Position numbers and translations under genes: made by a program. The notes beneath the pieces were generated by a model. It was not told where the DNA came from and did no database searches. It saw only the letters and a list, made by a program, of their open reading frames with translations. A stretch of 64,000 nt of DNA. Source: Colius striatus (Eukaryota > Chordata > Aves > Coliiformes > Coliidae). Location of the stretch: contig NC_084768.1 of NCBI RefSeq assembly GCF_028858725.1, forward strand, positions 4,571,853 through 4,635,852. The letters are read 5' to 3'. Positions 8,368 through 60,801 of the stretch are shown piece by piece (position 1 is the stretch's first letter; every line of letters starts with the position of its first letter).

Positions 8368-8655
8368 TCACGCCGCTGTCCGTCGGATTTCCTCTGACAA
8401 GGTGATGGATCTCTCCTTCCACTCGTTGTTGGAGCACTTGGAGACGGCGTTGGCCGCTTGGCAGAACTTCTGGAGGAGGATCTTCCTGAGCAGCAGGTAA
8501 ACCCAGGGATCCAGTATCTGGTTGAGCGAGGCCAAGCGCACGGCTGTCAGGAAGAAGTTGCACTCTTTGTGCAGTTCGGAGCTCTGGGCTTCACCGGAGA
8601 ACCTCCTGCAGCGTTCGAACGACGTGTGGCTGAAGATCATCTTCAACATCGTTAT
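8368..8655 (-). CDS. PTGER3: PTGER3 coding exon 2 (terminal)
   Basis: The acceptor is CCCTTAG before ATAACGATG, which starts [12 protein letters not shown]. Encodes residues 279-373: loop 3, TM7 and the cytoplasmic tail, ending with stop TAA or TGA class at 8368. The tail after FCQ runs on in the same exon as [17 protein letters not shown] and onward. This aligns with the EP3-II-type tail (VANAVSS...) known in mammals. Confidence 0.94.
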
Positions 8656-11600: not shown

Positions 11601-14600
11601 TGTGTGTGGTGATGGGTACCTGTGTGTGTGATGGGTACCTGTGTGTGATGGGTACCTGTGTGTGGTGATGGGTACCTGTGTGTGATGGGTACCTGTGTGT
11701 GTGATGGGTACCTGTGTGTGGTGATGGGTACCTGTGTGTGGTGCTGGGTACCTGTGTGTGTGATGGGTACCTGTGTGTGGTGATGGGTACCTGTGTGTGA
11801 TGGGTACCTGTGTGTGTGATGGTACCTGTGTGTGTGATGGGTACCTGTGTGTGTGATGGTACCTGTGTGTGGTGATGGGTACCTATGTGTGTGATGGTAC
11901 CTGTGTGTGTGATGGGTACTTGTGATACCACTCTGCACAGTAGCTCCAACACACACCCCACCGCTGTCTTTGCCCCGATCAGTGCCACCACACACCAAAG
12001 AAACCAGCAGCCTGTCCTGGGAACACAGGGCACAGCCTGAGGGACAGGACCTGCAGTCTGTTACTCGCAGCTCTGTCCAGCTTCTTGACTTCACCCTTTC
12101 CAGCGGCACATGCTGGTGGGTCCCCGCTGAGGCTTTCCCACACAAGCCTGTCTTCAGAGTTCAGTATCACCCAGAAAGGTCACATCTGGCCTGCTGCTGC
12201 CCCAGAAACTGGGACAGATGGAACAAGAGCTCAGGACCAGGAGCACAGGCTACGGGGGAGGATTTTTCCATTCAAAGGCATATTCTGGGTGCCAGATCAA
12301 TAACCACGTGTTGACCTTGGAAAGACTTTGATGAGTCCGGAAGGCAGCGCAGCTCGGACAGCAAAGCAGAATTGTTTGTGCTTCTTTAAATAGAAGCACT
12401 TTGAGGAGTCCATCTACTCCATTTAATTTAAATGGAAATGAAAACAAGTAACCACTGACAGAGCTTTTCAAAAAACCCAGCAGAGCTCTTTAAAAACATG
12501 GATGGATTCAGATCCAGATCCAGACCACATGAAGCAGCCACAGGCCCGCAGCCCTACCACTTCCTCTGTGTGGGAGACTGTCCCTCTCACTGCTGGGACC
12601 ACACTGCCCGTGGCATCCACCTCCTGCACACACCCCCGAGCCCATTGCCACAGAGGGCAGCAGCCCCACGGACCCACGCTGTGCCCCCCTGGCAGCCCGT
12701 GGAAACCACGCTGCATCCGCCATTCACAGCACCAGGATCCCTGCTGGAACTCCTCTCTGCCAGATCAGCTCTTCCTTTGGGATCTCTGCAGTGGCCCTTG
12801 TTTTGCAGACCCCGCTGTCTTGCTCTTTTGTTGGTAAGTCCACAGAGCTACAAAAATATCAGGCTAATAAAAGCCTTTTCCCAAGCATGGAGCCACTGCT
12901 TATTTTTGTATTTATTACATAATATTCTGTTACTGGAATATCTGTTGCAGCAATAATTGCTTTACTAGAAATTTTGTTTGATAGCCTTAGAGGTTATTAA
13001 TGATGGTCTGTTCTGATCTTCTAAATGAATTAACAGAAAGGCTGCAGAAGGTAGAGAAGCAACATCAGGTGGAATAAAGTCAATGCACCTACACAATTTA
13101 TGCCCATAAGAACAACTATGGCTGAAAATGCATTTAGTAATATGGCTGGTAACTGTATTTATCCAACCAGAGTAGATAAAACCTTACTGTTATCACTGAA
13201 CGCAGTCTCGTAACAACATTAAACCTCTGCTGCTCTGGTTTTCAGACTCACAGCCAAAGACAAGATGTGGTTTGTGAGATACCTTTACTATGCTTTGAAT
13301 AAAGCTGGGCTGGGGTACACCAGAACTTTTCAGGGTTGTTTCACAGGCTCCTGCTATTAACCATCCCTGTGATACACCACCACCAGCTTAACTGTACCTG
13401 GGAAGCCTGTGTTACCTCAAGGACTCTCAGGCAACTTACTGTTACATTGCAAAGAGTATGAGACGGACTTCCACTGCAGTTAGGAGACAATAAAACCCCA
13501 CAAAACCCCCAAACAACAACAAAACAAGTTTCCCAAAGATATTCTTCCAGTTTTACAAGCCCTGTTGGAAATTGCTGCTATCTGCAGTAAAAGATGGAGG
13601 ATAAAACAGTTGATGTGCTTAAAGGTGCATCTATTGCAGCCAAGCAAGAGCTGAGCAGCTCCTTTGGAATGTGGGGTAAGAATCTGAGGGGAAATTCCTG
13701 GTCCCAGGCTGCAAAATCTTTCCTGAGATAGCTTCCAAAAAACCAAACATGCTTTCTATGCATCACGAAGACAGGTGGACTTGTCCTCTTATTCTGCTTC
13801 TCCCCTCCCAGTAGCCCTAATGCTGCTACAGGCATTCTCTCACACATAAAGCAGTGAGCTGTAGGAGCTAAGTCTGGCCAACTAGCCTACAGAGGGGCAT
13901 GTCTGGCATCAGCAGCACCTTAAGCTTGCCTCACCTCCCCACTGTAGTTGCTAACTGGAGAAGGCTGAGGACTTTCATAAGAACGTGTTTGCAGAGGGAC
14001 ACTACCGGAGGGAACTGCGACAAGGGCCCATTGAAGTCAAGCAGGATTCCAGCAAAGGCCATCTCATTTGTACCACGTGGCTGTGACCTTACTCCAGACA
14101 CACACAGCAAAAGTCAGGCTTGTGGCCCAACAGCCAGCACGCTGGGGCAGGTTTGGAAGAGGTGGCTATCTCAGCCTCAGATGGAAGCAGAGTGGTGGGA
14201 AGGGAGCCATCTGTTTTCCTGGCAGGGCAGTGAGATCCCTGTCTTTTTGCCTCTCCAAGCGAAGGTGCTTTCCATAACTACATTCTGCACAGTTAAATTA
14301 ATAAAACCCATTATCTTTTCAACAAAAAATCCTGTAAAGAGCATGGATTTCATTTCTGCCTGGCAGGAGGGTTAAGGAGGAGTAGTATTTTAACAGGAAA
14401 AGCAGCAGAATACCTGAGCATTTTGGCTTTAAAAAGCCTCAAAACAACTCCTAGTGAAGAACTTTGTAGCCTGGAGCTCTAAAAGAACGACTAGGGGAAC
14501 TGTAGTTTGTGCTGCACTGGTGTTTCAGTGCAATCAAGGAATAGCTTCCTCTGTTTCACCTCTGACTCATTTCAACCTGCTGTCACTTTAGTTCAATGGT

Positions 14601-17600
14601 TGTGTTCCACAGCTGAGCGCCAAAATAAACAGAAGATGAGCGTGACCTGGAAAGTACTTCTGATAAAGCGATATCATACTGAAATGGAGCGTTTTCCTGG
14701 GCTCTCCATGCTGAACTCAAGCAAGATCCTGAGTACACAGCAGAGAGGCACTGCCTGCTTTTACATAGGCACTTCCTCTCTTGTGCCAATCCCAGCACAA
14801 CCCAAGAGGCGGCAGGACACTTTGTCACATCTGATTTTGTCATTTTCACCAACAGATCAAGTCTGAAATACTGTCTGTGTAAAAAAGCATGGCTTACCTT
14901 GTGGTAAGAGTTGTCAGAATCCATTAGTTTTCAGTTATAAAACTCGGATTTCTTTTTCAAACAACCCAAACCCCTCCTTCCAACAACCCCTGGGTTCCTG
15001 TCTCAACTACTCTGCTTGCGACTGCTCAACAATGCAGCTGCAGGTTGAAGGAGTTGTACAACTTGGCTGCCACTGAAAATGCATTCACGTTACTCCACGG
15101 TCGCTTTTCAGCTTTCAAAGTATAAATTAAGAATAAGAGGCCAGACCCGTGGAAGTACCCATATAAAAACGCTTCCCTAGTCACGACTTCATCTCGAGAA
15201 TACAAACACTGAAGAATAAGCTGGACCAGAGAAGTCCTGCAGAGCTCCACAGGGCAAGTTCTATGATTCCAGGGTTGCTGCTGCACAGGGAGGTGACCTG
15301 TTTCCTGCCCAGTCAGGGTGACAGCAGTGTCACCCACTGGGGCAGCAGTGCTCTGGGTGATTGTAAAGGGCACCTGAAGCGTGCCTAACCAGCAGCTTTT
15401 CAACTGGCCTTGCCTCTGGCTTGGAGCGCCGGGCTCCTGGCCAAGCGCTTGGTTCACCTGCCACAGCCACAGCTCCCGTCAGCCCTGCTGTCTCTGAGCA
15501 GCTGCCCCAGGTTTCAGGAGGTGCCAGCGTTGTTTACAACAGGCTGCCTGACCGGGCTCTGCTCCATTAACTCGTCCCATTAACACTTCCCACGGCTCCA
15601 TTCAGTGGAGCAGGGGCAGCTTGATCCCTTTGATTTCCAACAGCTACATCTGCAAGAATCACAGAATGGTGGGGGTTGGAAGGGACCTTTAGAGATCATC
15701 CAGCCCAACCCCCCTGCCAGAGCAGGTCCCACCTAGATCAGATCACAGATCTGAATGCCACGGGAAGCAAACCACCAAGAGGAGTCCCTACATCTTCACT
15801 GATTTTCCTGAGTACACAGGTTCTGAAGGACAAGAAAGTGTCCCTCACCTTAGGGACTTTCTCTGGCTGCTCCAGGGCTGCTTAAACCCTCAGTGCCGTG
15901 GGTCCCTGCCCCAGGGAGCAGCAGTGGTCCTGCCGCCTTGGCTGCAGAGCAGGGCAGAGCCCATGTCCCCACAGGGAGACTGCAAACGCAAGGGCTGAGA
16001 GGCAAACACACCTCCTTCTTTTAACAAACACCCTTCCTTTTCCCATCTACTTAATTACAGACAAGCACGTAACAGTTAACTTGTGTAAAAAAAGAGCTCC
16101 TACCCCCCCCTCCACACAGGCAGGGTGTGCCACAACGATGTTAGCCACGGTGCCTGGGACTGCAGAGGCAGAAATGATGCCAGGGCAGGCTCTTGGTTCA
16201 GCCTATCCAGTCTAATAACCTTCCTTGGGGTTTGAGGAGCAGGACAGAATTCTTTGCTCTCAAGTTCTCACCAGATCTTCAGCGTGGATTCATATTTTGC
16301 TTTCGTCACAGGCTGTTACTGAGCATTAGAAAGTTATCCTGCAGCCCCTGACTTACGTTGGGGCAGGGTGATTTTGGAGATTTGATGGCATTCTGATTAC
16401 TCTACATGGATAACTTCACTAAGTTAAATGAATCTGGTTGCCATTTTACCTCATGCCCATCAGCCGTTAGCTGTGTCAGCCACTCCTCTTGTCACAGCCC
16501 CGCTCACCAGAGCTCAAGTTCATTGTGCATGAGAAGAAAAAACTTTCTCCAGCCATACAGCACCTTTAACATAACTTCAAAATTACCACAGCTAGCTTCA
16601 GCCCTTTCCTGCTCACGGACCCACACACAAATTATCTGAAAGTCGTACTGTCCTCTGACAGCAGAACAAGCTGTCCTGAAAAGGATGGAGAACCAGCCTC
16701 CCTTGTCCCACATGGCAGAAAGAGATATGGATTTGGCCTTCTCCACTCCTAAATCATGAGGAGTGCCCAGTTTGACACGAAAAAGCCTAAGTGAAATGTC
16801 ACAAAATAGTGGAAATGCACACAAGGGTCCTGTAGAAAAAAAACCACAAGAGCAAAACAACAGCAACAAAAACCCCAGAAACAAAAAGCCCAGAGTCTAA
16901 ATAAGACACAGTGAGCAAGCTGCCGGAAACCAGAAGGCACAGACGAAGTTCTGAGCCATACCTTTTGTCATAAAGCACTCAAGTGAGTTTTGCTAAAAGG
17001 TGGCAGCAAATAAAGAATGCCAAATAGCTCATGGTCATGAGCACAGCGCTCCATCACAGTATGGTCTCGATAAACTTCCTTACAGGTTCCTCCAAATGAG
17101 GAACAAGCAGGTTGTGGTTCCCCTGGTCCCATGCCCTTCAGAGCCCCGAGATGCCACGGAGCAGGCAAGGGGAGCTGGGCAGGAGCACTGCCTGCCCTGC
17201 CGCTCCCCCTCCCCTCTCAATCTGCCCTTGTCTGCCTGTGGCTCTGTGCCACCAGTGCCCAGTGTCCTGTGCCCAGACCCACGATCTCCTCATGTTCTGC
17301 CTCTCAAGACCCTTTTTTTGCTCAAAGTCCCTTCTTTTGACTCAGTTTCCTTCGTCCTATTTTTCAAAATATGCTGTACTTTGGCTGTCATCTTGGACCT
17401 CTCCCAGCTTCTCTCACACCAGCTTTCCATGCCTGACTTCGCTCAGGCTGTCCCTGTGCCCTCTTTCTCTTCTTAGACACCATTCACAGCCATACTGGCA
17501 ACAAGGAACCTGCACGGCCAGTGCCCCCCACCCTGGCTCCCAGGACCACGGTGCCTCCTGCCCTCAGGGGCTGGCCCGCAGCAAGGTGACCTACCAGCAG

Positions 17601-18428
17601 TGGTGACCAGCAGGCTGAGAGGACACACATGATCCCCAGGAGCTGGATCAGAGTCTCCATGGCGATTCGTCCCCACTGCTTGCTGGAGCGCGAGGCAGTC
17701 GCTTTGGTCCGACAACGAGACACCAAGGCCTCGATGGTGGCCAGGTTGCAGGCCACCGTCACCACGAGGGACAGGAGCCCCAGGACGGCGAAGGTGGAGG
17801 CGAAGATGAGGCTTCCTGTGAGCTGGCTGTCGCTGGTGCTGATGAAGCACCATGTGCCAGGCCACTGCAGCGTGTACTGGCCCAGGCCGGTGATGGGCAG
17901 GAGGGCGAAGGCGAACACAGCCAGCCAGATGCCGAGCAGCACAGTCTTGGTCACCCGCGTCTTCATGTGGCTGGCGTACCAGTGCGGCGCCCGGATGGCC
18001 AGCGTCCGCTCCACGGCCATGGCGCTGGCGATGAAGAGAGGGCAGAGGCCAAAGACGGTCATGCTGAAGCCGAAGAAGGCGCAGAGGTGGCCAGAAGGGT
18101 CGACGGCGTCCCAGGCGCGGTCGGCCAGGTAGACGGAGATGACGATGGGGCTGGTGAGCAGCTGTCCCAGCAGGTCGGTGAGCGCCAGGGAGCCGATGCA
18201 CAGCAGGAAGGATCGCTTCCGACGGCTCTCCTTGGCCCGGTAGCTGCGCGACACCAGCAGCATGGCCAGGGCATTGCCCACGATGCCCGTGACCATCATG
18301 GTCAGCGGGAACGCCACCGAGACGGCGCCGCAGCCCTCTGCCGCCCGCCCCGTCGCGTTGCCCCGCTGCCGCATGGCGCCGGGCTCGGTGCCGTTGGGGT
18401 CGCCCTGGCACTGCGGCCAGCGGCTCAT
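8368..18428 (-). CDS. PTGER3: Prostaglandin E2 receptor EP3 (two coding exons)
   Basis: Class A GPCR of the plasma membrane that binds prostaglandin E2. The family couples mainly to Gi and lowers cAMP. Joined coding exons 18428-17595 and 8655-8368 give 373 aa, close to the 388-390 aa of human isoforms. Visible marks: two N-glycosylation sequons near residues 12 and 24; TM1 with [13 protein letters not shown]; Glu140-Arg141 at the end of TM3 in place of DRY; the prostanoid-receptor loop-2 motif [10 protein letters not shown] (189-198), whose Cys194 can pair with Cys116; and TM7 with Arg318 and [10 protein letters not shown], where the family's Arg contacts the prostaglandin carboxylate. The start at 18428 was chosen because it is the first in-frame ATG in the CpG island and gives a normal N-terminus. 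The tail after FCQ resembles the human EP3-II type. Confidence 0.95.
8996..9085 (+). repeat. Inverted repeat, left arm
   Basis: About 90 bp, including GTGAAACGTTTTACAGCA, TGTCTCTTGG and TGTGGGGAACAG. It recurs as a diverged reverse complement at 9489-9588, about 400 bp away. It lies in the PTGER3 intron. The source family is not recognised. Confidence 0.75.
9489..9588 (-). repeat. Inverted repeat, right arm
   Basis: Reverse-complement partner of 8996-9085. Shared blocks include TGTGGGGAACAG, TTCCTAAAT, GATCCCTC and GTGAAACGTTTTACAGCA. One gap of about 12 bp lies between the TGTCTCTTGG and TGTGGGG blocks. The arms are old enough to have diverged at many sites. Confidence 0.75.
9589..10683. 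other. PTGER3 intron 1 (3' part), no feature seen
   Basis: Unique intron sequence. No exon, RNA gene or repeat family was recognised. Confidence 0.4.
10684..11925. repeat. GGTACC-bearing TG-rich minisatellite
   Basis: About 1.24 kb of 15-20-bp units with core GATGGGTACCTGTGTGTG, by my estimate about 65 copies. Length variants carry an extra GT or GTG before GATG. A GCTGGGTACC subtype is clustered at 10950-11160 and recurs near 11740, and a TAACTCTG subtype is scattered. Most units carry the KpnI word GGTACC. The alternating GT stretches could favour Z-DNA. Open frames of 470-530 codons on the minus strand (His-Thr-Gly-Thr, Arg-Tyr-Pro-Ser) are repeat artefacts. The array lies in the PTGER3 intron. 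Confidence 0.95.
11926..15654. other. PTGER3 intron 1 (middle), no gene seen
   Basis: Mostly unique sequence. A short A/C-rich tract at about 13490-13530 is low-complexity. No exon or RNA gene was recognised, and the open frames here lack family features. Confidence 0.4.
15655..15748 (-). mobile_element. CR1 LINE, short 3' fragment
   Basis: Starts with AGAATCACAGAATGG and continues GGTTGGAAGGGACCT, GAGATCATCCAGCCCAACC and CACCTAGATCAGATCACA. This is the reverse complement of the last about 95 bp of CR1. The rest of the element is absent. Confidence 0.9.
15749..17594. other. PTGER3 intron 1 (5' part)
   Basis: Unique intron sequence up to the exon 1 donor. No further element was recognised. 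Confidence 0.4.
17595..18428 (-). CDS. PTGER3: PTGER3 coding exon 1
   Basis: Encodes residues 1-278, from the N-terminus through TM6, ending in CWSPLL. The donor is GTAGGT immediately after CTGCTG, and the junction is in phase 0. Unspliced read-through stays open to 17484 but adds residues foreign to the family. The exon is very CpG-rich. Confidence 0.95.
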
Positions 18429-18720
18429 CGCGGCGGGCTACTGCGGCGGCGGGGCGCACAGGGGCCGGCCCATGGCTGCCCGCACCTCCCCGCCGAGCCG
18501 AGCCGAGCCGAAGCCAAGCGGCGGTGCCGGCCGGAGCGCGGCCGTTATAAGGCGGGGGCGGGCAGGGGCCGGTCGTTCCCGCCCTGAGGGGCCGGCAGAG
18601 GCGGCCCGGCCCTCCCGCCCGCCGCCGAGCCGCTCCGGGCGCGGGACGGGCTCCGCCAGGCCGCCGCCGGGCTGCCGGCGCCAGAGCGGCTCCCGCGGCC
18701 CTGGAGCTTTCCAGTCAGTA
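17600..18720. promoter_or_regulatory. CpG island over PTGER3 exon 1 and promoter
   Basis: CpG-dense and GC-rich from within exon 1 to about 300 bp upstream of the start codon. GGCGGGG/CCCCGCC boxes lie near 18545-18560. A TTATAA word at about 18545 lies roughly 115 bp upstream of the ATG and could act as a weak TATA element. The true start site cannot be read from sequence. Confidence 0.6.
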
Positions 18721-21952: not shown

Positions 21953-22016
21953 TTATTTCTTTTTAGAACTTGTTCGGGACCCAGAATGGGAAGATCCAGA
22001 TGATGATCTGCGGCGT
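21953..22016 (-). CDS. ZRANB2: ZRANB2 coding exon 10 (terminal)
   Basis: 64 nt with acceptor CTTGCAG. Encodes RRRRSSSGSSHSGSRTSSKKK-type C-terminus (the first Arg is split), then TAA at 21955-21953. Confidence 0.95.
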
Positions 22017-25000
22017 CTGCAAGATACAAATGGAGAAAGCATGCAAAGAAATAAGTTGAAATTAATTTTAGCATCCACCTCGAGTAGTCTGTATCCTATA
22101 ATAGCTGGAAGCCAAGTATATCTGATAAGGGGCCTCACAAGAATACAGAAGTAACTTTAAACCACTCAAAGCTCGTGAACGTGGCTTTAAGACTAAAAAT
22201 GTAAGTTTAATACTGAGAGTATGATTTCTAAATGCAATAATTAGTTATGAAAGCGAACCAGCCATGTACACACTGGCACTTTGACACACCGAAAGAACGG
22301 TGACCCAGGTCTCTCTATGGAGCACGCTCCCAGCAGAATGAAACTTTCATTGGAAGGAAGGGGGAAGGCAATTACAGAGGTTTAAATAGGAAGTAAGAGT
22401 AGGGGGGAGCAAGAAAACTACTTTTACTATTGGAATAACTGATCAGATTCTTTCCCAGTGAATCTCTGTCCTTAAGAAAAAATAAAAACCAAACCAAACC
22501 AAACCAAAATCACACATTTCAATACAGCCATTCTTATTCTACATAAACCCAAACCTTTCGGGTGACCGTGATCTCGATCGTCTTTTTTTGCGATCACCAG
22601 ATGAAGACGATCTAGAGCGACTCCGCTTCTTGCTTCTCTCGGGGGAGGATGACGAACGAGAGCTGGAGTAAGATCTTTTCCTTGGGGTGGAAGACCCCCT
22701 GTAGGACCTGGAGCTGGATCTTTATTGATTAAGAAATAAATGAGATTTAATTCTGGTATAATACGGAAAGAACACAGAAAGAACAAAAAGAGACACTTTT
22801 GATGAACGCTCGCTACTCTAGTTACATCAGTGCGCTGTCAAATAAACGTCTGGGTGCTTTAATACTTACTCCTTAGTTATCTGCCAATCAAGACTTCTAC
22901 TGTCGTGGTAGTTTTCTTAATAAATTTTGCTAATTGGTGTTTCTTGAGATACAGAAAAGAAATCTCTTTCCAGCATCCACCAGAATGGCGCCTTTTGACA
23001 AGGAAGCGATGGGAGACTGGCAGAGGAAGCAGCCTACATAAGGACCTTCCTCACCAGTTGAATTCACAAAGCCAACCACAGACTTAATGTTGACTTCATG
23101 TTTCACTTCATACTACAGGGCATTTCACACTGGAGATTCGGAAAGTAATGTTCATCTTACACTCTCTGAGAGGTTTCACTCTTCTAGTATCTATAAATCA
23201 CAAAGGAGATTTGTGTAGAGGCCAAGACCTTCAACAACAGAAGTAGTCTTAAAAAAATCCTTCTCAGAATACAGTCATTTTGGCATTTAAAAAAATCCAA
23301 AGAAATAGCTTCACTTACAAGCACTCAAAAAAATCACTTTGGTTATCTAAAGAAAAACCAAAACCAAACCAACAAAAAAACCAGCCACCTGTGGAAAAAG
23401 TAGCAGAGCTAGAAAGCCCTCAAGTCTAATTCCAAAGTTACAGAAACACACCCAACACGACCTTCCAGTGAGCTGGGCAAAACCTTTACAAAAAACACCA
23501 ACAGCACAGTGTGTGTTGCCGGCAAAATATCTTCAGGGTTCTCATTTCACATGAGCTAACACACTCAGGACTCTCAGGATGCCGCGTGGCACAAACAGCC
23601 CAGCTCAGCTGAGGAGCCACCTGAGCATCTGGTGGGGCACCAGCACCCTTTTTCTCTTCCTAAAGCACAGGCTTCATCTCATGCTGACCCTCACACGTGT
23701 CAACCCACAGCATCCTGCTGCCACCAAAGGGTGATGGCACGATTTGTGATTGGTCTGCCCCATTCCAAACTCCTTATTTAAAGGTTCTCTGCATGCATGG
23801 AGATGGGACAGTCCTTCCTTCCACTGCAAAGTGAAAATCCTGTGCGAGGAGACCTCGAGGAAGCCACAGGCCTTGGTTACGCTTCCCCACACGGGTGGCT
23901 GACTGCTGCACCCAAAACATCCAGCCAGCTCAAACTCCTCTCAGCTTCTCATATCACTCACTGCCAACATCTTTATACACCTCCCCTCCCCCGTTTATAA
24001 CGATAATGGCAGCACTATCTAGTAGGAGTTTGATGTGTTAGGTGAGTTCTCACTGAACACAAACCCAGCAGCACAGCATATTTGCTAGCATTCCTCCACA
24101 TCAAGTAGTCACAAGTGGAAACAGTAAAACAAGCACAAATGACTGAAACAAGTAAGCACGCCTTCAAATTCTTCTTCCTTCCAAGTGAAGATCAGTAGTG
24201 TCCACTCGTCTAGCTTAGATCAGACTTAAAACTCTTCAACCAAAACCTTGCCTTCTCAAGCCATACATCTGTGGTGGGAACAAGCTCTTGCAGAGACCCC
24301 AGGGATTCTGACTTCCAAGATAAAAATGAGTTAATGTGTTTAGACCAGCATAACTTTACGATGAAATCAACAAGCCGTTGGTTCTTCTGCCCGTTTTGCT
24401 CTCTGCAAGCAGAGAGTGCTACCTCATTCACCTTGATTTCGACCCACGAGATCTAGAGTGTTCTCTGGAACTGGAACGAGATCTTGATCTGGAACTGGAA
24501 GAACTTCTTGAATGGGACCTGAAACAACACAGAAGACATTTTTCCAGTGTCTGACTTGTATCTAGCAGAATAACTGCCACTGTTAGCAGCAGAGATAACG
24601 ATGCATCAATACAATGAATACAATTTGGCCCAGAGTCACTAAAGGAGTGACAGTTTTACTCCCTCAACATCAACAGGGCATATTTTACAACAGCAACTTC
24701 AACACAGTGCATTAAACATTTTATAAAGTCAGCTTTTTATTACGCTTTCCTAGAACAAAGCACAAAAATGAAACAGGATTGCAGTTATTTGGCAAAATGA
24801 AATGACTGTCTGCCTAGTAACTGTTCAACGACACCAATGCCTTAACTCTTAATTTGTGCTTTAACTTGAAAACCATCAGCTTCCTTGAAAAGCGGAGTAG
24901 GTAAGAGTATTAGTCCTGCTAGCTCCAACCTTCCCCCAAGTCAGTTCTCACGAGCTTTTTGTAAGCAGTTTGAAGTTTTCATAAAGGTTTTCCCTTGCAT

Positions 25001-39600: not shown

Positions 39601-40216
39601 AAAGCGATATTTTCATATCTGAATAAAGCCTTTTGCCCAAGAATCACAAGGCCAGAGTAAATATTAATAATTCCTATCTGCAAGATGAAGTACAGAAACA
39701 CTGAAGCCACTCTTATTGGTAAAAGTGGGGCAAAGAATAGAGTAAGTTTCCAAGGAAGTACAAAACATCAGTGGCACAATCAAGGACAGCATTCACATGC
39801 CCTTCTTCTCACTCCTGAGACTGAGACAACCTTTGGAAAATAAGAATGAAATGAGTAGTCATTTTCATTCTTTCTAAACCACAGAAAAATAGGTCAGCCA
39901 TGTTTTCATTTTAGACTACTACCCATTAATTCTATTTCCATTACAATTTGTTCTGTCAGCTTGCAAGAACTAGCCATCACAAGCTACAATCACGTGTTTG
40001 TTCCTAGACTAGCCTAACAGCACCTTGAATACAAAACACGGCTTTCTCTGAGACAGGAAAAGAAAGACTGGGGAAAGGAGAGCTACTGGTGTTTCAATAT
40101 ACACTTTACAAAAATGGTTGTTGCTTTTGCAACTTCTCCAATGTTCCTGGGAATAAGCCAGGTTCAGGTCCATCTATACATAAACCAGAAACCATAAACC
40201 ACAAACCACAAATCTA
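36656..40216. other. Gene-free stretch before the satellite
   Basis: Unique AT-rich sequence. No exon, RNA gene or known repeat was recognised. Confidence 0.45.
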
Positions 40217-43200
40217 TGTTTTTTAGTGACTTTTTAGTGGCTTTTTTACTGGCTTTTTGAGTGGCTTTTTTAGTAGCTTTTGAGTGGCTTTCTAAGTGTC
40301 TTTTTTTAGTGTCTTTCTTTATTGTGTTTCTCTGATTCTATGGTTCTACGGTTCTCTGATGATGTTGTTTCTACGAGTCTATGGTGACAGGGCTCAGTGC
40401 TGCCGCCTTGTGTCCGAAAGCAAGAGCTGCAGCCGGGCTGCTCTCGTCTGCCACCATGTGGTGCAGCGTGAGTACTGCAGCGCTCGATTGACACCGCAGC
40501 GTGTGCGCGGCGCTGGGCTGTGACTGATGTCGGGGCATTCCCGCACTATTCTGATGGGCTGCTGGCTCCACAGACTATTTAGGAATTAGGAATTAGGAAT
40601 TTAGGCTTTTTATGGTTTTGGTGGCTTTTTAGTGTCTTTTTAAGTGGTTTTTTAGTGTTTTTTTTTAATACAATGCTTTTTAAAAATAATATCCTTTTTA
40701 GGGGATTTTTTGTGGCTTTTTGTTAGCATTTTTAGTGGCTTTTTTAGTGACTTCTTTTCTTGTGTTTCCATGATTCTGTGTTTCTCTGGTTCTACGATTC
40801 CACGGTTCTCTGGCGCTGTGTTTCTACGAGTCTATGGTTCAGGGCTCGGTGCTGCCGCCTTGTGTCCGAATTGAAGAGCTGCGGCCGGGCTGCTCTCTTC
40901 TGCCACCATGTGGTGGAGCGTGAGTACTGCAGCGCTCGATTGACACCGCAGCGTGTGCGCGGCGCTGGGCTGTGACTGTCTGCTGTCGGGGCATTCCCGC
41001 ACTATTCTGATGGGCTGCTGGCTCCACACACTATTTAGGAATTAGGAATTAGGAATTTAGGCTTTTTAGTGGTTTCTTGTGGCTTTTTAGTGGCTTTTTA
41101 TGTTTTTTGGTGGCTTTTTAGTGCCTTTTTAAGTGGCTTTTTAGTGGCTTTTTTTAATACAATGCTTTTTAAAAATAATATCTTTTTTAGGGGATTCTTT
41201 TGTGGCTTTTTTCTCTTTTTAATGGCCTATTAGTGGTTTTTAGTGGCTTTTTTAATGACTTCTTTTCTTGTGTTTCTGTGGTTCTATGATTCTCTGGTTC
41301 TCTGGCTCTGTGTTTCTACGAGTCTATGGTGACAGAGCTCAGTGCTGCCGCCCTGTGTCCGAAATCAAGAGCTGCAGTCGGGCTGCTCTCTTCTGCCACC
41401 ATGTGGTGACGCGTGAGTACTGCAGCGCTCGATTGACACCGCAGCGTGTGCGCGGCGCTGGGCTGTGACTGTCTGCTGTCGGGGCATTCCCGCACTATTC
41501 TGATGGGCTGCTGGCTCCACACACTATTTAGGAATTAGGAATTAGGAATTTAGGCTTTTTAGTGGTTTCTTGTGGCTTTTTAGTGGCTTTTTATGGTTTT
41601 TGGTGGCTTTTTTAGTGGCTTTTTTTATACAATGCTTTTTAAAAATAATGTCTTTTTTAGGGGATTTTTTGTGGGTTTTTAGTGGCTTTTTTAGTGATTT
41701 CTTTTCTTATGTTTCTATGATTCTGTGATTCTATGGTTCTATGATGTGTTTCTACGAGTCTATGGTGTCAGAGCTCAGTGCTGCCGCCTTGTGTCCGAAT
41801 TGAAGAGCTGCAGCCGGGCTGCTCTCTTCTGCCACCATGTGGTGGAGCGTAAGTACTGCAGCGCTCGATTGACACCGCAGCGTGTGCGCGGCGCTGGGCT
41901 GTGACTGTCTGCTGTCGGGGCATTCCCGCACTATTCTGATGGGCTGCTGGCTCCACACACTATTTAGGAATTAGGAATTAGGAATTTAGGCTTTTTAGTG
42001 GTTTCTTGTGGCTTTTTAGTGGCTTTTTATGGTTTTTGGTGGCTTTTTTAGTGGCTTTTTTTATACAATGCTTTTTAAAAATAATGTCTTTTTTAGGGGA
42101 TTTTTTGTGGGTTTTTAGTGGCTTTTTTAGTGATTTCTTTTCTTATGTTTCTATGATTCTGTGATTCTATGGTTCTATGATGTGTTTCTACGAGTCTATG
42201 GTGTCAGAGCTCAGTGCTGCCGCCTTGTGTCCGAATTGAAGAGCTGCAGCCGGGCTGCTCTCTTCTGCCACCATGTGGTGGAGCGTAAGTACTGCAGCGC
42301 TCGATTGACACCGCAGCGTGTGCGCGGCGCTGGGCTGTGACTGTCTGCTGTCGGGGCATTCCCGCACTATTCTGATGGGCTGCTGGCTCCACAGACTATT
42401 GAGGAATTAGGAATTAGGAATTTAGGCTTTTAATGGTTTTTTGGTGGCTTTTTTAGTGGCTTTTTAAGTGGCTTTTTATTGGCTTTTTTATACAATGCTT
42501 TTTAAAAATAATGTCTTTTTTTAGGGGATTTTTTGTGGCTTTTTAATCTTTTTTAATGGCTTTTTAGTGGTTTTTAAGTGGCTTTTTTAGTGACTTCTTT
42601 TCTTGTGTTTCTATGATTCTGTGATCCTATGGTTCTATGATTCTCTGGTTCTCTGGCTCTGTGTTTCTATGAGTCTGTGGTGTCAGAGCTCAGTGCTGCC
42701 GCCTTGTGTCCGAATTGAAGAGCTGCAGTCGGGCTGCTCTCGTCTGCCACCATGTGGTGACGCGTTAGTACTGCAGCGCTCACACTGCAGCGTGTGCGCG
42801 GCGCTGGGCTGTGACTGTCTGCTGTCGGGGCATTCCCGCACTATTCTGATGGGCTGCTGGCTCCACAGACTATTTAGAAATTAGGAATTAGGAATTTAGG
42901 CTTTTTAGTGGTTTCTTGTGGCTTTTTAGTGGCTTTTTATGGTTTTTGGTGGCTTTTTTAGTGGCTTTTTTTATACAATGCTTTTTAAAAATAATGTCTT
43001 TTTTAGGGGATTTTTTGTGGGTTTTTAGTGGCTTTTTTAGTGACTTCTTTTCTTGTGTTTCTATGGTTCTGTGATTCTATGGTTCTATGATGTGTTTCTA
43101 CGAGTCTATGGTGACAGAGCTCAGTGCTGCCGCCCTGTGTCCGAAATCAAGAGCTGCAGCCGGGCTGCTCTCTTCTGCCACCATGTGGTGGAGCGTGAGT

Positions 43201-43787
43201 ACTGCAGCGCTCGATTGACACCGCAGCGTGTGCGCGGCGCTGGGCTGTGACTGTCTGCTGTCGGGGCATTCCCGCACTATTCTGATGGGCTGCTGGCTCC
43301 ACAGACTATTGAGGAATTAGGAATTAAAAATTTAGGCTTTTTAGTGGTTTCTTGTGGCTTTTTAGTGGCTTTTTATGGGTTTTCGTGGCTTTTTTAGTGG
43401 CTTTTTAGTGGCTTTTTTTATACAATGCTTTTTAAAAATAATGTCTTTTTTAGGGGATTTTTTGTGGTTTTTTAGTAGATTTTTTAATGGCTTTTTAGTG
43501 GTTTTTAGTGGCTTTTTTAGTGACTTCTTGTGTTTCTATGGTTCTGTGATTCTCTGGTTCTCTGATGTGTTTCTACGAGTCTATGGTTCAGGGCTCGGTG
43601 CTGCCGCCTTGTGTCCGAATTGAAGAGCTGCAGTCGGGCTGCTCTCGTCTGCCACCATGTGGTGAAGCGTGAGTACTGCAGCGCTCGATTGACACCGCAG
43701 CGTGTGCGCGGCGCTGGGCTGTGACTGTCTGCTGTCGGGGCATTCCCGCACTATTCTGATGGGCTGCTGGCTCCACAGACTATTTAG
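40217..43787. repeat. Eight-unit composite satellite (about 430-490 bp unit)
   Basis: Eight head-to-tail units. The anchor word AGAGCTGC recurs at spacings of about 451, 494, 436, 436, 478, 431 and 474 bp. Each unit has two halves. One is a T-rich half of GTGGCTTTTTAG-like steps, a TACAATGCTTTTTAAAAATA block and a TTCTATGATTCTGTGATTCT run that resembles the CR1 tail octamer. The other is a CpG-rich half of about 200 bp holding GCTGCCGCCTTGTGTCCG, TGCCACCATGTGGTG, GCAGCGTGTGCGCGGCGCTG and GGGGCATTCCCGCACTATTC. TTAGGAATTAGGAATTAGGA joins the halves in most units. The CpG-rich half is much better conserved than the T-rich half, which varies in length. Recurrent 62-75-codon frames on both strands are side effects of the repeat. 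Confidence 0.95.
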
Positions 43788-43893
43788 GGAATGCCGCGCC
43801 GCCACGTTGAGCCGCTGGGCAATGACAATGCGGCGTCAGGCGTTGCCAGGTAACGTCCATGCCAGCAGCCCATCAAAGAATTGCAAGAATGCC
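43739..43893. repeat. Inverted repeat at the array's right edge
   Basis: The 32 bp at 43739-43770 in the last unit (GGCATTCCCGCACTATTCTG onward) recur as a reverse complement at 43862-43893 with 26 of 32 matches and no gap. A shorter inverted piece, GGGAATGCC, lies at about 43788. The arms enclose GC-rich sequence found nowhere else in the array. Confidence 0.8.
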
Positions 43894-46800
43894 TTGCCGT
43901 CATTTTGGGTCACAAAATAGACTCAGTATCATATTCTTCCTCTCATCTACCTGCTTCTGAAATACAAGAAATTAATTAATGCTTGAAGCCAGCACATTTT
44001 TCTGTTGTAAACAGCAAATGGGCTTCATGAAGACACCCTTAGGTATTTACCTCAACAATCCTAGAGGATGAAGTCTTTAGTTTTACCTCCTCTCTTCCTC
44101 TCACCACCTTCTTACCCTTACTTAACTCTGTCACAGCTGAGCTTACTGGAGGGTTTTGGCACAAGTGTCATAACACAGCTCCATATAAGACTCATTTCCT
44201 GAAGCCAGATTTGACCATCTCCAGACCTCACACCCAGTGCCATCCTCACACACCTCTTCCTTTGGCTTTGGAAGGGCTTTGCCTATAACACTCCCAGGGC
44301 CCTGAGCTTTGCCACACAGGAGGAGAGCTTCTCCAGATAGCTAAATGTGTTTATCAGTCTTTCTGATGGTTAGTTAATTAAAACTTTTAACAGTTAGCAA
44401 CCTTGGAACAGGCACAGGTTTACTCACCATTTTGACAGAGATCCATGCCTCCAGGATTCAATGTGCACAGGTAGACAACATGCATGGTTTGTCCCACTGA
44501 CTGTCCCCACCTCCTCTGTCCACCCAGTGAAAACCAGCTTGTGACTCACGAAAGCATCCTGGTCTCCAGTGGCATTTTGGATTCCATTTGACAAGGACAA
44601 TAGTTGCTATGGCTGGACGTTAGGAAGGACCACGAGCCCCCTTACTCAGTGCTCAGTGCTGTGGCTGCTGCTGCCTTAGATACCAGCACCAACCACAAGA
44701 TCGGCTCTTCCCAGGTATCAGGATCTCCTTCAGAACTGGCTGATGTTTTGCTTTCACCAGTAAGAAGTCCTTGTGTTGTAGTCGTTAGAGACCACTGCTG
44801 GGCAAGAGAGCCAACATCAAAGCACACATCGCTGTCCCGTGCAGAGGCAAAGGCAGCAGTGACTGCAGGTGCCGGTGCTGCAGTGCCGCTCACACTGTGC
44901 AGGAAGCGAGACAGAGCACATGGCAAGCAGGACAGGAACGTACAATTGCCCTCTGACTGGCTCTCTTCTCAGAGGACAGGTAAGACATCAGCTATCCCTG
45001 CCTATGTAATTCAGCCCCTGGCAACATTTGCCCTTTAAGCAGTAATCAAGACCATTACCTTTCAGCATCACATGTTGCCAAAATGCCGTGAAAAACAACA
45101 TTAGGTCTTTTAATTAAAACAGTGGATCAGTTCCACCTCTAGGACCTTCATGTCTTTTCTCAAGTTTCTTTCCATTCCTTCTGAAGAGTCTTGATGGAAA
45201 AAGTCGGTTTTAAGGGCTAGTTTAACTTCTGGGTGAACAGCAGGGCCTGACTGTTAAATCCTGTCCAGTTACCCCAGGACATCAGCAACATTGCTCCAAG
45301 GAAACTTGGACCCAGTGCACTGGAGCAGGTTCTATGATCAGACAAAGTACCCTCAGAAATTCACTATAATTCTGTCATTTCATTTGGAATGACTTTTTTT
45401 AAAATGACATCATTTGTATTTTTTTCCCTTGGCTATGCCAAAACCAAAGAACCAAGGCAAAACCTGAGGCAAATCACATTTTATAACTCTGAAAGCATAA
45501 ATCTCAGCCACTTATACCTGTGCTTACAGAGGAGTCCTTGCTCTGTATGAACATAAAAGTACCAACCAGAGAGCTGCTTGAGAGGGTTATATGCTTCCCC
45601 ATAAATGGAGATCAACCTTATAAACTCTTTTGTTTAACTGCATCTTTTTGCTGATTTCCACCAATTCGTTCAGGCACTAAGTTGCCAACGGTGGAATAAG
45701 GGTTGTTGGTGCTTGTTGCATTGCTGTCTTACCCTCGAGCTCTGCTTTAAAGCTGAGAGCTCTGCCAGGAAGGTGTGTGTCCAGCTGGGCAGCCAGGGGC
45801 AGCCAATGGCCTGGGTCACCTTGGGGAAGGCACATTCCAGGCTTATTTTTGTAACTTTCTATGACAGAAGTTTATAGAAATTAGATAAATGCAACTTTTC
45901 AAAGCCAATTCTTCCCCACTTCCTTATTTTGCAGAAGTAAGAGGGGGTTTTGAGTGTTGTTAAATTTAAGCCAACCATTACTTCGTGCAATCACAAGGTG
46001 ACATTTGTTTGTCCCCAGACAACATTCAAAAATTCTGTGAAATGTACAGTGCAAAAGCTGTTTAAAAAGCCTTTGTAGTACTGAGAAAATCTACAGCAAG
46101 GTATCAAGCAACCAAAATAGATGAGTACTGCTTCAAGAGATGCTTGATCACGTATTAGAAAGAAAATGAGAAGAAAACGGACTTCTACAGTTTAAAGTAG
46201 TACTGCAAATTCAAACATCAGCTTTTAGCAAAAGCAGCCTCTGCTGGAGTAGCACATCTAGAATGTAAGAGCTAAATTACTGCAGGGCTCACTTGCCCAG
46301 TGGTCTGTTGGATGATTGTGCCGATGGAGCAACACATCTTTCTTGCAGCTGTATGACACTTTACTGACTCCATAGCTGCCCAAGAAGGCTGCAAAAACTT
46401 AGGGAAATAGGGCATCCCCAGGAGGGTGGGGATGATATATGCCTAGGATCCTCACAAGGTTAGACCAGAGGTTATTTGCCCCTAGCACTCAAGCATTCAA
46501 AGAGCCCAAATCTAGATACAGCCAGTTTTTATCAGGTCAGTTTCCTTGTTTCATCAGTAAGTGGAATCACTTACTGACATGGATTCTACTCATTTTCATA
46601 TTGCCAGATTGAGGTGTCAGTTATGCTTCTGTGGGCAAACAATGCAGCAAGTCTATCAACATTATAATAATGTAATAACTCTATAGCATATGGAGTTGTC
46701 TTATATAAGTTTATGTCTTGCTTTATTATATACTTAGAAAAAAACTAAGTTAGTAAGACATAAGCAAGAATTCATTACTGTGTCAAAGATCATGGCCACA

Positions 46801-53287: not shown

Positions 53288-56337
<3,050 letters not shown>

Positions 56338-58671: not shown

Positions 58672-60044
58672 CTGAGACAAAAACGAGAGACTGGATTTAA
58701 TTGCAAGACAGTGCACTCTTAAAACTGTGCTCCGGTTTAGCATCAGTTGATCTCGTCAAGGAGCAACTGTCTGTAATTTTAACAGGCTAACCTCTTCATC
58801 TCACCTGTGACACCCCAATACACACGACACATTAAAAAAATACATGCAGGTTACTTAGGCTGATGTGAATGATTTCTCTGTATCTCTGTACCAGCTACTG
58901 TTTTCCAGAGACATCATAATTTAAGGTTTGTTTTAGGAAGTCACTTTAGTCCCTTGAGTCATCTTTTGATAGTTTTTTCTCCCTATTCAAACCTTTAAAA
59001 GCTTCAACCACATGGTTCTACTCCAAAGCGGACTGCACTTGAAGGCTGGTTTACCTGAAGCCAGAGAAAACTTTAGGTCTTTCATCTCTAGTGTTGAAAT
59101 GTACCTCTTCCTTCCTTATTTCTCTTTTGATGGGTGTGAAAGGAGAAGTAAGGTTTTTGGTTTAGATGGCTTTGGCTTTTTTTAATCTTCCTTAAAACTG
59201 AAGTGCATATAGTCACTTCAAGATTTGTGTGTCAACAAAATCTCTCTGCCTGTATGAAACAAAACACACACATTTGCAGTGTCTGATTTTAAGTTTTGGC
59301 ATTGAAGGCATATAGGAGAATTCCTCTCAGGCTTTTGCTGGCTTATCTTCTGCTGAGGTGCAAACTTTGACAAAACCAGAACATCCTGCCACAGCAGTAA
59401 ATAGCTTCAAGAGAAATGCAAGATGGAAGATAACCACGTATTGTGAGTTCTGAATTAGAGCTTCAGAGAAAGCAAAACTGAAATGTGAAGACAGACATAT
59501 CCATCATAAATACACCTGACAGAGCTTTCTGAAATCTGTTACTTGTGATGTGTTCAGGTAGTAAAAAGGCAAAGGCAGGGTATATGCACTAGGTAAAGTC
59601 CACACGTTCCAAAATGTTTCTCCTAAACACTATGAGGAAAAAATCCCACCAAAACGTCATTACTAAGAAACATGATTTAAAGAATCATTGACATTTAATT
59701 TTGCAGACCCTCAAAATAAAACATGTCATACAAAATATTCCTATAAAGTCCTTACCTTTGAGAGCTTCAAGTTTTTCATTTTTTACTTTTAACACCACAT
59801 CAGTTATCTTTTGTAACAGGAAGTTTTGTGTTCTTTCTCGTCTGATGGATTCAATTAAAAAATCTAGTCCCTTTGGGTTTTCTGCTAAGTAGTCCAGTAA
59901 CTTCCCAGTTTTTTTCCTACTGGAAGATCTGGAAGAAATTTCTTCTGTATCTTCTCTTGTGAGGATTTTCTTTGAACGTAGGTAATCAAAATGTCTCTCA
60001 GCTATGATTTTATCACACAAGTAAGGACGCATCCGTTCTAAAGC
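58304..60044 (-). CDS. BCL10: BCL10 immune signalling adaptor (5' exon missing from window)
   Basis: Cytosolic CARD adaptor that bridges CARD-coiled-coil scaffolds such as CARD11 to MALT1 and activates NF-kB after antigen-receptor signalling. Two exons are present, 60044-59756 and 58671-58304, giving 218 residues. Human has 233 residues with 19 in exon 1, so this protein would be about 237. The first exon here holds nearly the whole CARD: RPYLCDKIIAERHFDYLRSK, ILTREDTEEISS, KLLDYLAENPKGLDFLIESI. The second starts GLSCSTC and carries NNLSRSYSDESNF, the Ser/Thr-rich tail and GPGDPGAPPLPPELQ, ending SLQPQ. No ATG-bearing exon 1 ending in a Val-Lys-Lys-Asp-like codon string is visible up to 64000. 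Confidence 0.95.
59756..60044 (-). CDS. BCL10: BCL10 coding exon 2 (CARD)
   Basis: 289 nt, acceptor TTTTTCAG before GCTTTAGAA, donor GTAAGG. 96 codons plus one base, phase 0 at the start, as expected if exon 1 encodes 19 whole codons. Confidence 0.94.
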
Positions 60045-60801
60045 CTGAAAAACAAAGACCGGTATTAGCCCATCTTTCCATTTATTCAGAAGCCCTGTAT
60101 TTGAAACCTGGATGATCCTGACACAAGTTAAAGGAAACAATTCTTAAAGCTGCTCCTGTGTTACCTAGCAGATATTATTCTCCTTGTAAAGAAAACAATT
60201 AAAAAGTTATCTAATTTACTCACCTCTTTCATTAGTTTCCTTTGAGGGAACTCAGGACTTTTAATGCACGTTAAGTAATATGGCAAAGAGCTACTGAAAA
60301 CGTTACCTGTATCACGTCTGTGGTTATCCCATTTCAGAACAGTCAGGAGTAAGAATGAAAAGAGACTACACCAACAAAACACATCAACCAACAAGACACA
60401 TCAGCACCTACTCACTTTGTCTACAGACACACTAATTCTCGATGACTACCCAATGACCATGTTTCCATACTATTTGTATTCACAAGGCACCACTCAAAGT
60501 ATTGCAGTTACTGCTCTTTTCTGTACATCCAGCAAAAGCAGTCTCAGAGCAACAGCATGAATATATTAATGTTTTAAAAGGTTTGTTAAATAAACACCAC
60601 TATTTATAAGTTCAAGAGGTTACTGGCATCCAATACACATGCCCTTTCATCCACAGATGTATCTATTCTCAAAAGATTTTACTGTCTGCCTTTTGCCCTC
60701 ATCAAACTGTCTTCTTTTGGTTTAAAATTTTGTCTTAAGCACCTGCAGCAACTTGCACATCTCTAACACGCTGCATAGGCCACTGAGATACTGCAACTCT
60801 G

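Follow-up and report, generated by a model that had tools for sequence, protein, structure and literature searches.

Homology within a single assembly identifies the tandem array at positions 40217-43786 of the window, i.e., the whole 64,000-nucleotide stretch of Colius striatus DNA analysed here, as a fragment, truncated at its 3' end and amplified locally, of a composite repeat that is dispersed through the genome at low copy number. The joint reading, namely an amplified dispersed-repeat fragment that spread by unequal exchange and whose activity, if any, would most likely be CTCF binding, is considered fairly probable as a whole.

Organisation of the Array

As the original prediction had it, the array consists of eight tandem units, arranged head-to-tail and each composed of a T-rich part and a CpG-rich part, and the modular make-up claimed for it is borne out by the structure of the units as well as by their composite relatives. 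Unit lengths range from 365 to 493 bp (n = 8), with a period of 436 reported by Tandem Repeats Finder in two overlapping rows, i.e., 40604-43788 (score 3423) and 41235-43788 (score 3603). In all eight units, the CpG-rich part measures 215-220 bp and contains 13-16 CpGs, with a G+C of 0.58-0.60 and an observed/expected (o/e) CpG ratio of 0.72-0.85. The T-rich parts (149-273 bp) have 0-3 CpGs each, and the CpG o/e is 0.18 in the kilobase on either side of the array. Beyond the array end at 43786, related single-copy CpG-rich DNA runs to 43913 (the FL block); the unit 8 CpG part and FL together make 343 bp with a G+C of 0.59 and an o/e of 0.88. CpG islands are defined by a length of at least 200 bp, a G+C of at least 0.5 and a CpG o/e of at least 0.6, and all eight CpG-rich parts have this composition; together with the CTCF-like words described below, this agrees with the earlier view of a high-CpG part carrying regulatory-like words. 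As a head-to-tail repeat with concerted evolution, the array is satellite DNA. An EP3-like frame lies to one side of it, and C1orf52-like and BCL10-like frames to the other. Its features are as follows:

40217..43786, plus strand: whole array, eight T-rich + CpG-rich units
40217..40365, plus strand: unit 1 T-rich part, without the ATACAATGC core
40366..40581, plus strand: unit 1 CpG-rich part
40582..40818, plus strand: unit 2 T-rich part
40819..41037, plus strand: unit 2 CpG-rich part
41038..41310, plus strand: unit 3 T-rich part
41311..41530, plus strand: unit 3 CpG-rich part
41531..41746, plus strand: unit 4 T-rich part
41747..41966, plus strand: unit 4 CpG-rich part
41967..42182, plus strand: unit 5 T-rich part, identical to that of unit 4
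42183..42402, plus strand: unit 5 CpG-rich part, 2 differences from that of unit 4
42403..42661, plus strand: unit 6 T-rich part
42662..42876, plus strand: unit 6 CpG-rich part
42877..43092, plus strand: unit 7 T-rich part
43093..43312, plus strand: unit 7 CpG-rich part
43313..43567, plus strand: unit 8 T-rich part
43568..43786, plus strand: unit 8 CpG-rich part
43599..43617, minus strand: CTCF-like site 1 of unit 8, 13.6 bits (working matrix)
43647..43665, minus strand: CTCF-like site 2 of unit 8, 12.2 bits (working matrix)
43787..43913, plus strand: FL, single-copy second CpG-rich block, with X-box-like GTTGCCAGGTAAC
43861..43902, minus strand: inverted diverged copy of the CpG-part end (GCCAGCAGCCCATCA...), within FL

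Divergence and Exchange between Units

The CpG half had been called nearly invariant. With a mean pairwise substitution of 3.8% (28 pairs, eight units), the wording is fair, but the contrast with the T half, at 6.1% (21 pairs, units 2-8, unit 1 being left out of the T-half statistics because its T part lacks the T core), is carried mainly by indels. Gap events per aligned site amount to 0.0043 in the CpG part vs. 0.0216 in the T part, and the T/CpG substitution ratio over units 2-8 is 1.75 with an interval reaching 1 (95% 1.00-3.33); restricting the columns to gap-safe ones gives 1.66 (0.87-3.35). In the CpG half, 35 of the 66 informative site pairs fail the four-gamete test, failures being rarer between close sites (10/30) than between distant ones (25/36; permutation p 0.014), which upholds the claim of recent spread with exchange between units. 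The last duplication left its mark as a stretch of 542 bp that recurs exactly at lag 436. The unit distance matrices of the T and CpG parts show a weak correlation (r 0.36, p 0.13), so that other processes have acted besides whole-unit duplication.

CpG Retention and Decay

A special cause for the persistence of CpGs in every unit is not supported by the counts. Within the array, transitions hit 2 of the 28 majority-CpG columns and 3 of the 101 remaining G/C columns; with the 5-fold CpG rate measured in a control block of this genome, about four CpG columns would be expected to be hit (probability of two or fewer, 0.22), and only a 10-fold rate would make two or fewer unusual (P 0.011). Young copies that exchange sequence with one another are enough to explain why CpGs are kept inside the array. 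Between loci, counting one copy per locus (n = 9) and leaving L026 out of the control block, the ratio of CpG to non-CpG transitions is 2.7 (95% 1.0-7.1) in the CpG part and 5.1 (4.0-6.4) in the control block, a non-significant difference with overlapping intervals (resampling P 0.09). For the pair of loci L009 and L011, the ratio is 2.3 in the arms of 61-bp repeats, and 1.0 and 3.6 in the CpG part plus FL, with shared CpGs at 8/58 in the arms, and 34/52 and 26/50 in the CpG part plus FL. The higher shared fraction in the CpG part plus FL was not accepted as proof of hypomethylation, since CpGs are sparse in the arms, these are more diverged overall, and their normalised ratio is no higher.

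Dispersed Relatives in the Same Genome

No family had been recognised for the array, and a match to a known dispersed repeat had been named as grounds for refuting the original reading; such a repeat does match within this genome, where the CpG part occurs at nine further loci, so that the array is not an isolated satellite. The CpG part of the window gave 22 matches outside the window at eight loci and a second query added two loci, the one at C12:16.87 Mb having the FL block only; the CpG part is carried by six contigs, five of chromosome size and one of 365 kb. At the fetched loci, the CpG part is mostly followed by the FL block, of which the window retains one copy. The order T part, CpG part, FL is found at L009, L010, L011, L012 and L014, as well as in one of the four copies at L013, and at L009, L011 and the last L012 copy there come next a part designated P (TATA-like stretch) and 61-bp repeats. 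In the fullest copies, this 61-bp minisatellite runs forward and then inverted, and the CpG part is found again at 4055 bp in L011. Besides the window, the fetched loci with multiple copies are L010, L012, L013 and L014 (three to six copies each); the L012 unit junction is unlike that of the window, and a 717-bp LTR-like inserted block has been copied along at L012. The left flank of the window array (39700-40217) has no match in any of L009-L037. Among the P matches listed, 11 loci lie less than 400 kb from the terminus of a chromosome-size contig, and every one of them is oriented towards it, with eight on the minus strand near starts and three on the plus strand near ends. This count leaves out C5, C32 and interstitial matches. 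The between-locus alignment comprises 25 of the 30 long copies, leaving out L012c, L013c, W3, W5 and W7, and also five partial L014 copies (69-74 bp) and short copies elsewhere.

The window copy is probably dead as a promoter, because the two CCAAT boxes of its FL block, present at five other loci, are both altered and the TATA-like stretch is absent. An inverted match of 33-42 bp at the right end of the window array was considered as the terminal inverted repeat of a transposon and rejected, because it is one of several internal CCAAT-box repeats of the composite.

CTCF-Like Sites

In each CpG part, two CTCF-like motifs lie on the same strand at a spacing of 48 bp, all bit scores resting on a working CTCF matrix. 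Site 1 scores 13.6 bits in six of the eight units and 9.1 in units 3 and 7, and site 2 scores 12.2-13.1 bits in seven units and 9.8 in unit 1. As such, every unit has at least one minus-strand site of at least 12 bits and five of the eight have two, the scores being moderate; 13 sites of at least 12 bits fall inside CpG parts, all on the minus strand, and four in the rest of the window. None of 2000 column-permuted matrices did as well, and among 5000 Markov sequences, 40 had one site of at least 13.59 bits and none had two same-strand sites of at least 12.1. Each site has a strongly disfavoured base, at position 12 in site 1 and position 9 in site 2, and the plain CTCF consensus with up to two mismatches misses site 1 entirely.

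The core of the CpG part is homologous to stronger CTCF-like clusters with a period of 48-50 bp, at L014 and L015, whose sites reach 12.6-18.4 bits (0/1000 shuffles in each of 10 comparisons). In 20 scored copies elsewhere, site 1 stands at 9.1 bits in 14, lower in five and at 12.1 at L015; at L011 both sites are lost, and CTCF-likeness is graded over the loci and sites, from about 1 to 15 bits. With one copy per locus (n = 9), conservation between loci is no greater in the CTCF-like columns than in the remaining CpG part, the majority identity being 0.93-0.97 in on-site windows and 0.88-0.97 in all windows printed.

Proposed Mechanism

At its fullest copies, the repeat comprises a T-rich stretch, an octamer run and the CpG part with paired CTCF-like sites, then the CCAAT-box CpG-rich block, the TATA-like stretch and the 61-bp minisatellite, forward and inverted, the window remnant being the T-rich and CpG modules eight times over plus one decayed second block. 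The T-rich direct repeats flanking the CpG part may have permitted unequal exchange in unit-length steps, and short exchange tracts would then have homogenised the units. Bird recombination is enriched at CpG islands (PMC12047795), and more recombination there would favour expansion of the array. The young age of the copies and, perhaps, low germline methylation of the island presumably account for the persistence of the CpGs. If the array acts at all, it would most likely do so by binding CTCF, with up to 16 predicted sites of weak to moderate strength clustered on one strand between the EP3-like frame on one side and the C1orf52-like and BCL10-like ones on the other; insulator or promoter activity is a prediction from sequence.

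Going further, the repeat might be a portable chromatin module, i.e., a CpG island grown from a CTCF-site cluster and coupled to a CCAAT/X-box promoter and a core promoter, the latter telomere-facing at the 11 terminal loci counted, which spreads and re-amplifies at several sites, every array making a fresh boundary that is tunable and marked by direction or, where the copies are full, the point at which a long hairpin transcript begins. This is put forward as a long shot. A CTCF-like CpG-island fragment that is amplified in the window and at four other loci of one genome makes a small, fully readable case with graded CTCF-likeness. It allows a test of whether tandem CTCF-like arrays arise via CpG-island recombination and whether copy number then determines how strong a boundary is. 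Should CTCF not bind, the array is an ordinary young satellite.

Alternative Explanations

That the array is a function-free satellite, i.e., a young local expansion whose CpGs and CTCF-like words are unbound leftovers of the source repeat, stands at about even chances; it is compatible with a dispersed-repeat origin and competes with the preferred reading on activity. It accounts well for site columns without excess conservation, CpG loss as expected at the control-block rate, altered or absent promoter parts and a sameness of units explained by exchange, but less well for a site 1 more CTCF-like here (13.6 bits in six of eight units) than in any of the 20 scored copies elsewhere, or for the homology of the core to stronger clusters. 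The opposite view, of a DXZ4-like regulatory macrosatellite whose CpG half is maintained by purifying selection because it binds CTCF and organises chromatin, appears very unlikely: the paired same-strand sites, the CpG-island composition and the lower divergence of the CpG half favour it, yet no conservation peak falls on the sites, which are lost at L011, the T/CpG ratio interval reaches 1, and the units are short and only eight in number. Of the macrosatellite likeness originally suggested, the CTCF-like motif in all eight units stands, whereas the units are not kilobase-scale and the motif is not conserved beyond its surroundings.

On origin, a transposable element, whether a DNA transposon with inverted ends or an LTR element with the T-CpG-FL block as its repeats, is improbable. 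The spread of the CpG part over six contigs, the CpG block that flanks the 61-bp region of L011 on either side and the inverted match at the right end would suit such an element, but that match corresponds to an internal repeat of the relatives and to no terminus, inspection of the window by eye showed no target-site duplication, the retroviral-looking frames (by eye) near L011 lie outside the repeat, and copies are few. A subtelomeric derivation, with the P and 61-bp parts coming from chromosome ends and the interstitial loci being blocks scattered by fusions or duplications, is rather doubtful. It draws on the endward orientation of the 11 P loci, yet a common orientation is expected of any subtelomeric duplication, and the P matches at 52-54 kb of C5 (the 365-kb contig) point away from the nearer end. 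Moreover, the CpG part is in none of the nine terminal 1.8-kb stretches read, FL-like sequence being only in L026, and doubled TTAGGG/CCCTAA is absent from 38 records including the window, three of the five contig starts read being all N.

Likeness to Known Systems

Human subtelomeric 61-29-37 (TERRA) promoters combine a CpG island, CTCF sites and transcription facing the chromosome end. The P part resembles them in facing the chromosome end at the 11 terminal loci counted, and differs in the terminal stretches lacking the CpG part and in the absence of a telomere repeat from the records searched. DXZ4/Dxz4 of mammals has units of 3 kb or 3.8-5.7 kb, with measured CTCF binding whose site is the conserved part, and the mouse array is small, with about six or seven unevenly sized units (PMC3491370); the tandem array, the CTCF-like motif per unit and, in human, the CpG richness are common to both, whereas the present units are of 365-493 bp, have dispersed relatives and carry predicted sites without special conservation. 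D4Z4, compared by description, shares the tandem units, these being of 3.3 kb and reported, with insulator assays, as a CTCF-dependent insulator (PMC2639723). The tRNA tandem repeat of human 1q23.3 (7.3-kb units with tRNA genes) is likewise a tandem repeat in which the CTCF site is proposed as the part that matters, but its 24-bp site is conserved between human and mouse (PMC4041453), unlike the CTCF-like sites here, which are not specially conserved. Firre has locus-peculiar repeats too, inside a lncRNA gene, one with a DNA enhancer role (PMC4820808), the present array being known from DNA alone. Chicken MHM, again compared by description, is an avian repeated sequence, i.e., a 2.2-kb Z-chromosome repeat yielding noncoding RNA with methylation-linked regulation (PMC4004567).

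Other Searches

Exact CpG-part and T-part patterns of 22-31 bases had no match in viral contigs or in the genome-contig collection, BLAST of 43093-43786 found none in phages, and Rfam gave none in the window, nor any up to E 5 in 40150-44050. As single-stranded DNA, the unit 7 CpG part shows no unusual folding (z -1.5). Among titles and abstract beginnings, no publication on the array or its sequence was found, and the repeat may be published. In one chicken study, a literal sequence word occurs within a PCR primer.

Organisation of the array

The array at 40217-43786 is most plausibly a young fragment, amplified locally, of a composite repeat of low copy number. The original prediction of eight tandem composite units proved right: all units run in the plus direction, each with a T-rich part (149-273 bp) followed by a CpG-rich part (215-220 bp), and they are placed between an EP3-like frame on the one hand and C1orf52-like and BCL10-like frames on the other, i.e., the following features flanking the array region:

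17484-18437, minus strand, EP3-like prostaglandin receptor frame (best chain EP3)
54354-55410 (~54.4-55.4 kb), minus strand, DUF4660 frame, which we take to be C1orf52-like
59685-60143 (~59.7-60.1 kb), minus strand, BCL10-like frame

Units 2-8 start with GGAATTAGGAATTAGGAATTTAGG or a close variant, continue with imperfect TTTTTAGTGGC repeats containing an invariant core, ATACAATGCTTTTTAAAAATAAT, and carry a run of TTCTATGA-type octamers between these repeats and the CpG part; ahead of its CpG part, unit 1 has nothing but plain T-rich sequence and the octamer run. A 542-bp run is identical between units 4 and 5 at lag 436, which makes a duplication of unit length the most recent step.

Divergence and exchange among units

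With the two halves measured apart, the CpG half was indeed the less divergent, the mean difference between units being 3.8% for CpG parts and 6.1% for T parts, but the 95% interval of the T/CpG substitution ratio reaches 1.00 (1.00-3.33; 0.87-3.35 in gap-safe columns). The T parts have about five times the density of gap events, and the CpG part has fewer variable columns among the gap-safe ones (16/202 vs 22/136, Fisher p 0.022). Within the CpG part, all four combinations occur in 35 of the 66 informative site pairs, namely in 10/30 of those within 35 bp vs 25/36 of the more widely spaced pairs (permutation p 0.014). The T and CpG distance matrices of the units are not significantly correlated (r 0.36, p 0.13), and unit distance does not rise with separation along the array (r -0.02). 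This is what short tracts of exchange, taking place among all units, would produce. In birds, recombination is enriched at CpG islands (PMC12047795), and such islands may drive the exchange in this array.

A dispersed family with repeated local amplification

Searching the same genome (1.21 Gb, 191 contigs; match counts being lower bounds) with the CpG part returned the eight window units and at least 22 matches elsewhere, and a second query added at least two further loci. Both queries combined, the family loci outside the window are:

contig C11, 20.67 Mb; contig C1, 163.37 Mb; contig C5, 52-53 kb
contig C12, 2.20, 2.92, 8.69, and 16.87 Mb
contig C14, 0.18 and 24.29 Mb; contig C9, 40.28 Mb

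The 16.87-Mb match on C12 is limited to FL, a second CpG-rich block that is single-copy in the window (43787-43913). Across the eight of ten loci covered by sequence-level comparison (records L009-L016), the CpG part differs by 6-18%. The order CpG part then FL is found at L009, L010, L011, L012, and L014, where the CpG part is cut ahead of FL, as well as in one of four copies at L013; no FL was found at L015. At L009 and L011, FL is followed by P, a stretch whose TATA-like word is GTATTTGACC at L009, GTATATGACC at L011, and GTATATGAGC at L012. After P, both loci continue with 61-bp repeats, forward (L011 3292-5171) then inverted (L011 5160-6448), a presumably CR1-like bit and, beyond it, T and CpG parts again, the CpG part recurring at 4055 bp in L011. 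This forward-then-inverted layout was seen at L009 and L011 only, where it forms a ~3-kb palindrome (L011 3292-6448; L009 684-4342) of ~65% arm identity that could yield a long hairpin transcript. The window match to the family ends at 43913. At L011, the frames at 7217-9889 (minus strand), which adjoin the repeat on its truncated right side, are retroviral-looking by eye.

Several loci hold more than one long CpG part, i.e., three at L010, four at L012, four at L013, and six at L014, the latter with five partial ones besides. The two junctions compared have different break points, the start of FL being joined to the T part in the window and a point after FL at L012. The fragment thus tends to expand where it has landed. 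The L012 unit also contains a block, LTR-like by eye, which opens with TGTTGACGG, closes with GCAACA, and has CTAC on its flanks; being inside the unit and present three times, it was copied together with it:

L012 3589-4305, 4929-5581, and 6205-6857, three copies of the LTR-like block, ~0.65-0.72 kb

CTCF-like sites and possible function

Of most interest is that the CpG part probably descends from a CTCF-like cluster. Scored with a matrix that we take to reproduce JASPAR MA0139.1, the CpG parts contain 13 sites that reach 12 bits, each of them on the minus strand, vs four in the remaining window, and none of 2000 column-permuted matrices places as many in the array. Of 5000 unit-length Markov sequences, 40 have one site of at least 13.59 bits and none has two same-strand sites of at least 12.1 bits. 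By contrast, the plain CTCF consensus with two mismatches matches 31 times in the window (16.8 expected); 17 of these matches lie inside the array and come from site 2, the second of the paired sites, and its near-palindrome, site 1 being absent among them. Both sites are 48 bp apart and identical at 13/19 positions. Two other clusters can be aligned with the core of the CpG part, over lengths of 67-95 bp:

L015 462-1191 (G000:C14 ~174 kb), ~15 tandem units of 48-50 bp, each with a plus-strand CTCF-like site (15.3-18.4 bits)
L014 8060-8250, four CTCF-like sites of 12.6-17.9 bits

A 17.3-bit site occurs in 9/15 units of the L015 cluster, which is set in a region of CpG o/e ~1. As the alignment score was reached by 0/1000 shuffles in each of ten comparisons, homology, and not scoring alone, suggests that the paired sites are what is left of a stronger cluster.

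Taken at the level of sequence, the most likely activity of the array would be weak or moderate CTCF binding, and an array without any function is a close rival. Elsewhere, site 2 reaches at least 12.1 bits in 16 of 20 copies scored (6/8 loci), being lost at L011 and the L016 copy being cut; site 1, at 13.6 bits in 6/8 window units, scores 9.1 bits in 14 of these 20 copies, lower in five, and 12.1 at L015. In the between-locus alignment, site columns are not more conserved than neighbouring columns, so that nothing points to selection on binding. Regarding the proposed likeness to regulatory macrosatellites, the layout does resemble a small one, but the array fails on both size and site conservation and is therefore not classed as such.

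A promoter-like block was also considered, CCAAT and X-box words being read in their usual meanings. Along the stretch that spans the CpG part and FL, and P as well at some loci, RRCCAATSR boxes number six at L009, three at L010, three per copy at L011, and two to three at L012, with X-box-like words in the stretches of L009, L010, and one L011 copy. The shorter window stretch, i.e., the CpG part of unit 8 plus FL without P, lacks CCAAT boxes and contains a single X-box-like word; when nine FL copies representing six loci are aligned, both CCAAT boxes prove altered in the window, and L009, L010, L011, L012, and L014 carry them.

CpG retention

It had been argued that CpG sites kept in every unit depart from normal decay. 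Within the array, transitions affect 2/28 majority-CpG columns vs 3/101 other G/C columns. A control block of eight subtelomeric copies (pairwise difference 0.2-14.6%) gave a 5.1-fold CpG transition excess (95% 4.0-6.4; 78/386 vs 242/6126), some copies being near-identical and the cells thus not all independent. At a 5-fold rate, about four CpG transitions are expected in the array, and the probability of no more than two is 0.22 (0.011 at 10-fold), so that the argument falls short of significance at the rate of this very genome. Between the nine loci compared, the CpG part has a 2.7-fold excess (9/208 vs 11/693; 95% 1.0-7.1), which is below the control excess at P 0.09. In raw terms, CpG transitions are much rarer here than in the control block (4.3% vs 20.2%, Fisher 2e-8), but other G/C sites are also slower (1.6% vs 4.0%). 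Hypomethylation of the CpG part is plausible.

The P block and chromosome ends

Querying with P gave at least 67 matches (40 of 44 candidates scored). Among the P matches listed, 11 loci lie <400 kb from the end of a chromosome-size contig and 11/11 point toward that end, a count that was made without the length of C10 and that omits C5, a 365-kb contig whose P matches face away from its nearer end. In nine 1.8-kb terminal stretches, P is present, the CpG part is in 0/9, FL-like sequence in one, and a CTCF-like site of at least 11 bits in one. P thus has a subtelomeric life, but a link of the CpG part to telomeres is only a lead. The doubled telomere word was not found in 38 records, three of the five contig starts read being N. 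Twelve more P places (G000:C32 ~943-1106 kb), spaced 9-28 kb apart and with eleven in minus-strand orientation, are a separate amplification of the P block.

Other repeats and composition in the window

Further repeats are as follows:

600-2185, CTGGG-like pentamer, ~317 copies, strongly strand-asymmetric
5732-6301, 54-bp minisatellite, 10.6 copies
10683-11924, 19-bp GTGTGTGTGATGGGTACCT minisatellite, 66 copies

At 22001-23000, CpG o/e is 0.67 at G+C 0.40, which is unusual in the window for such base composition.
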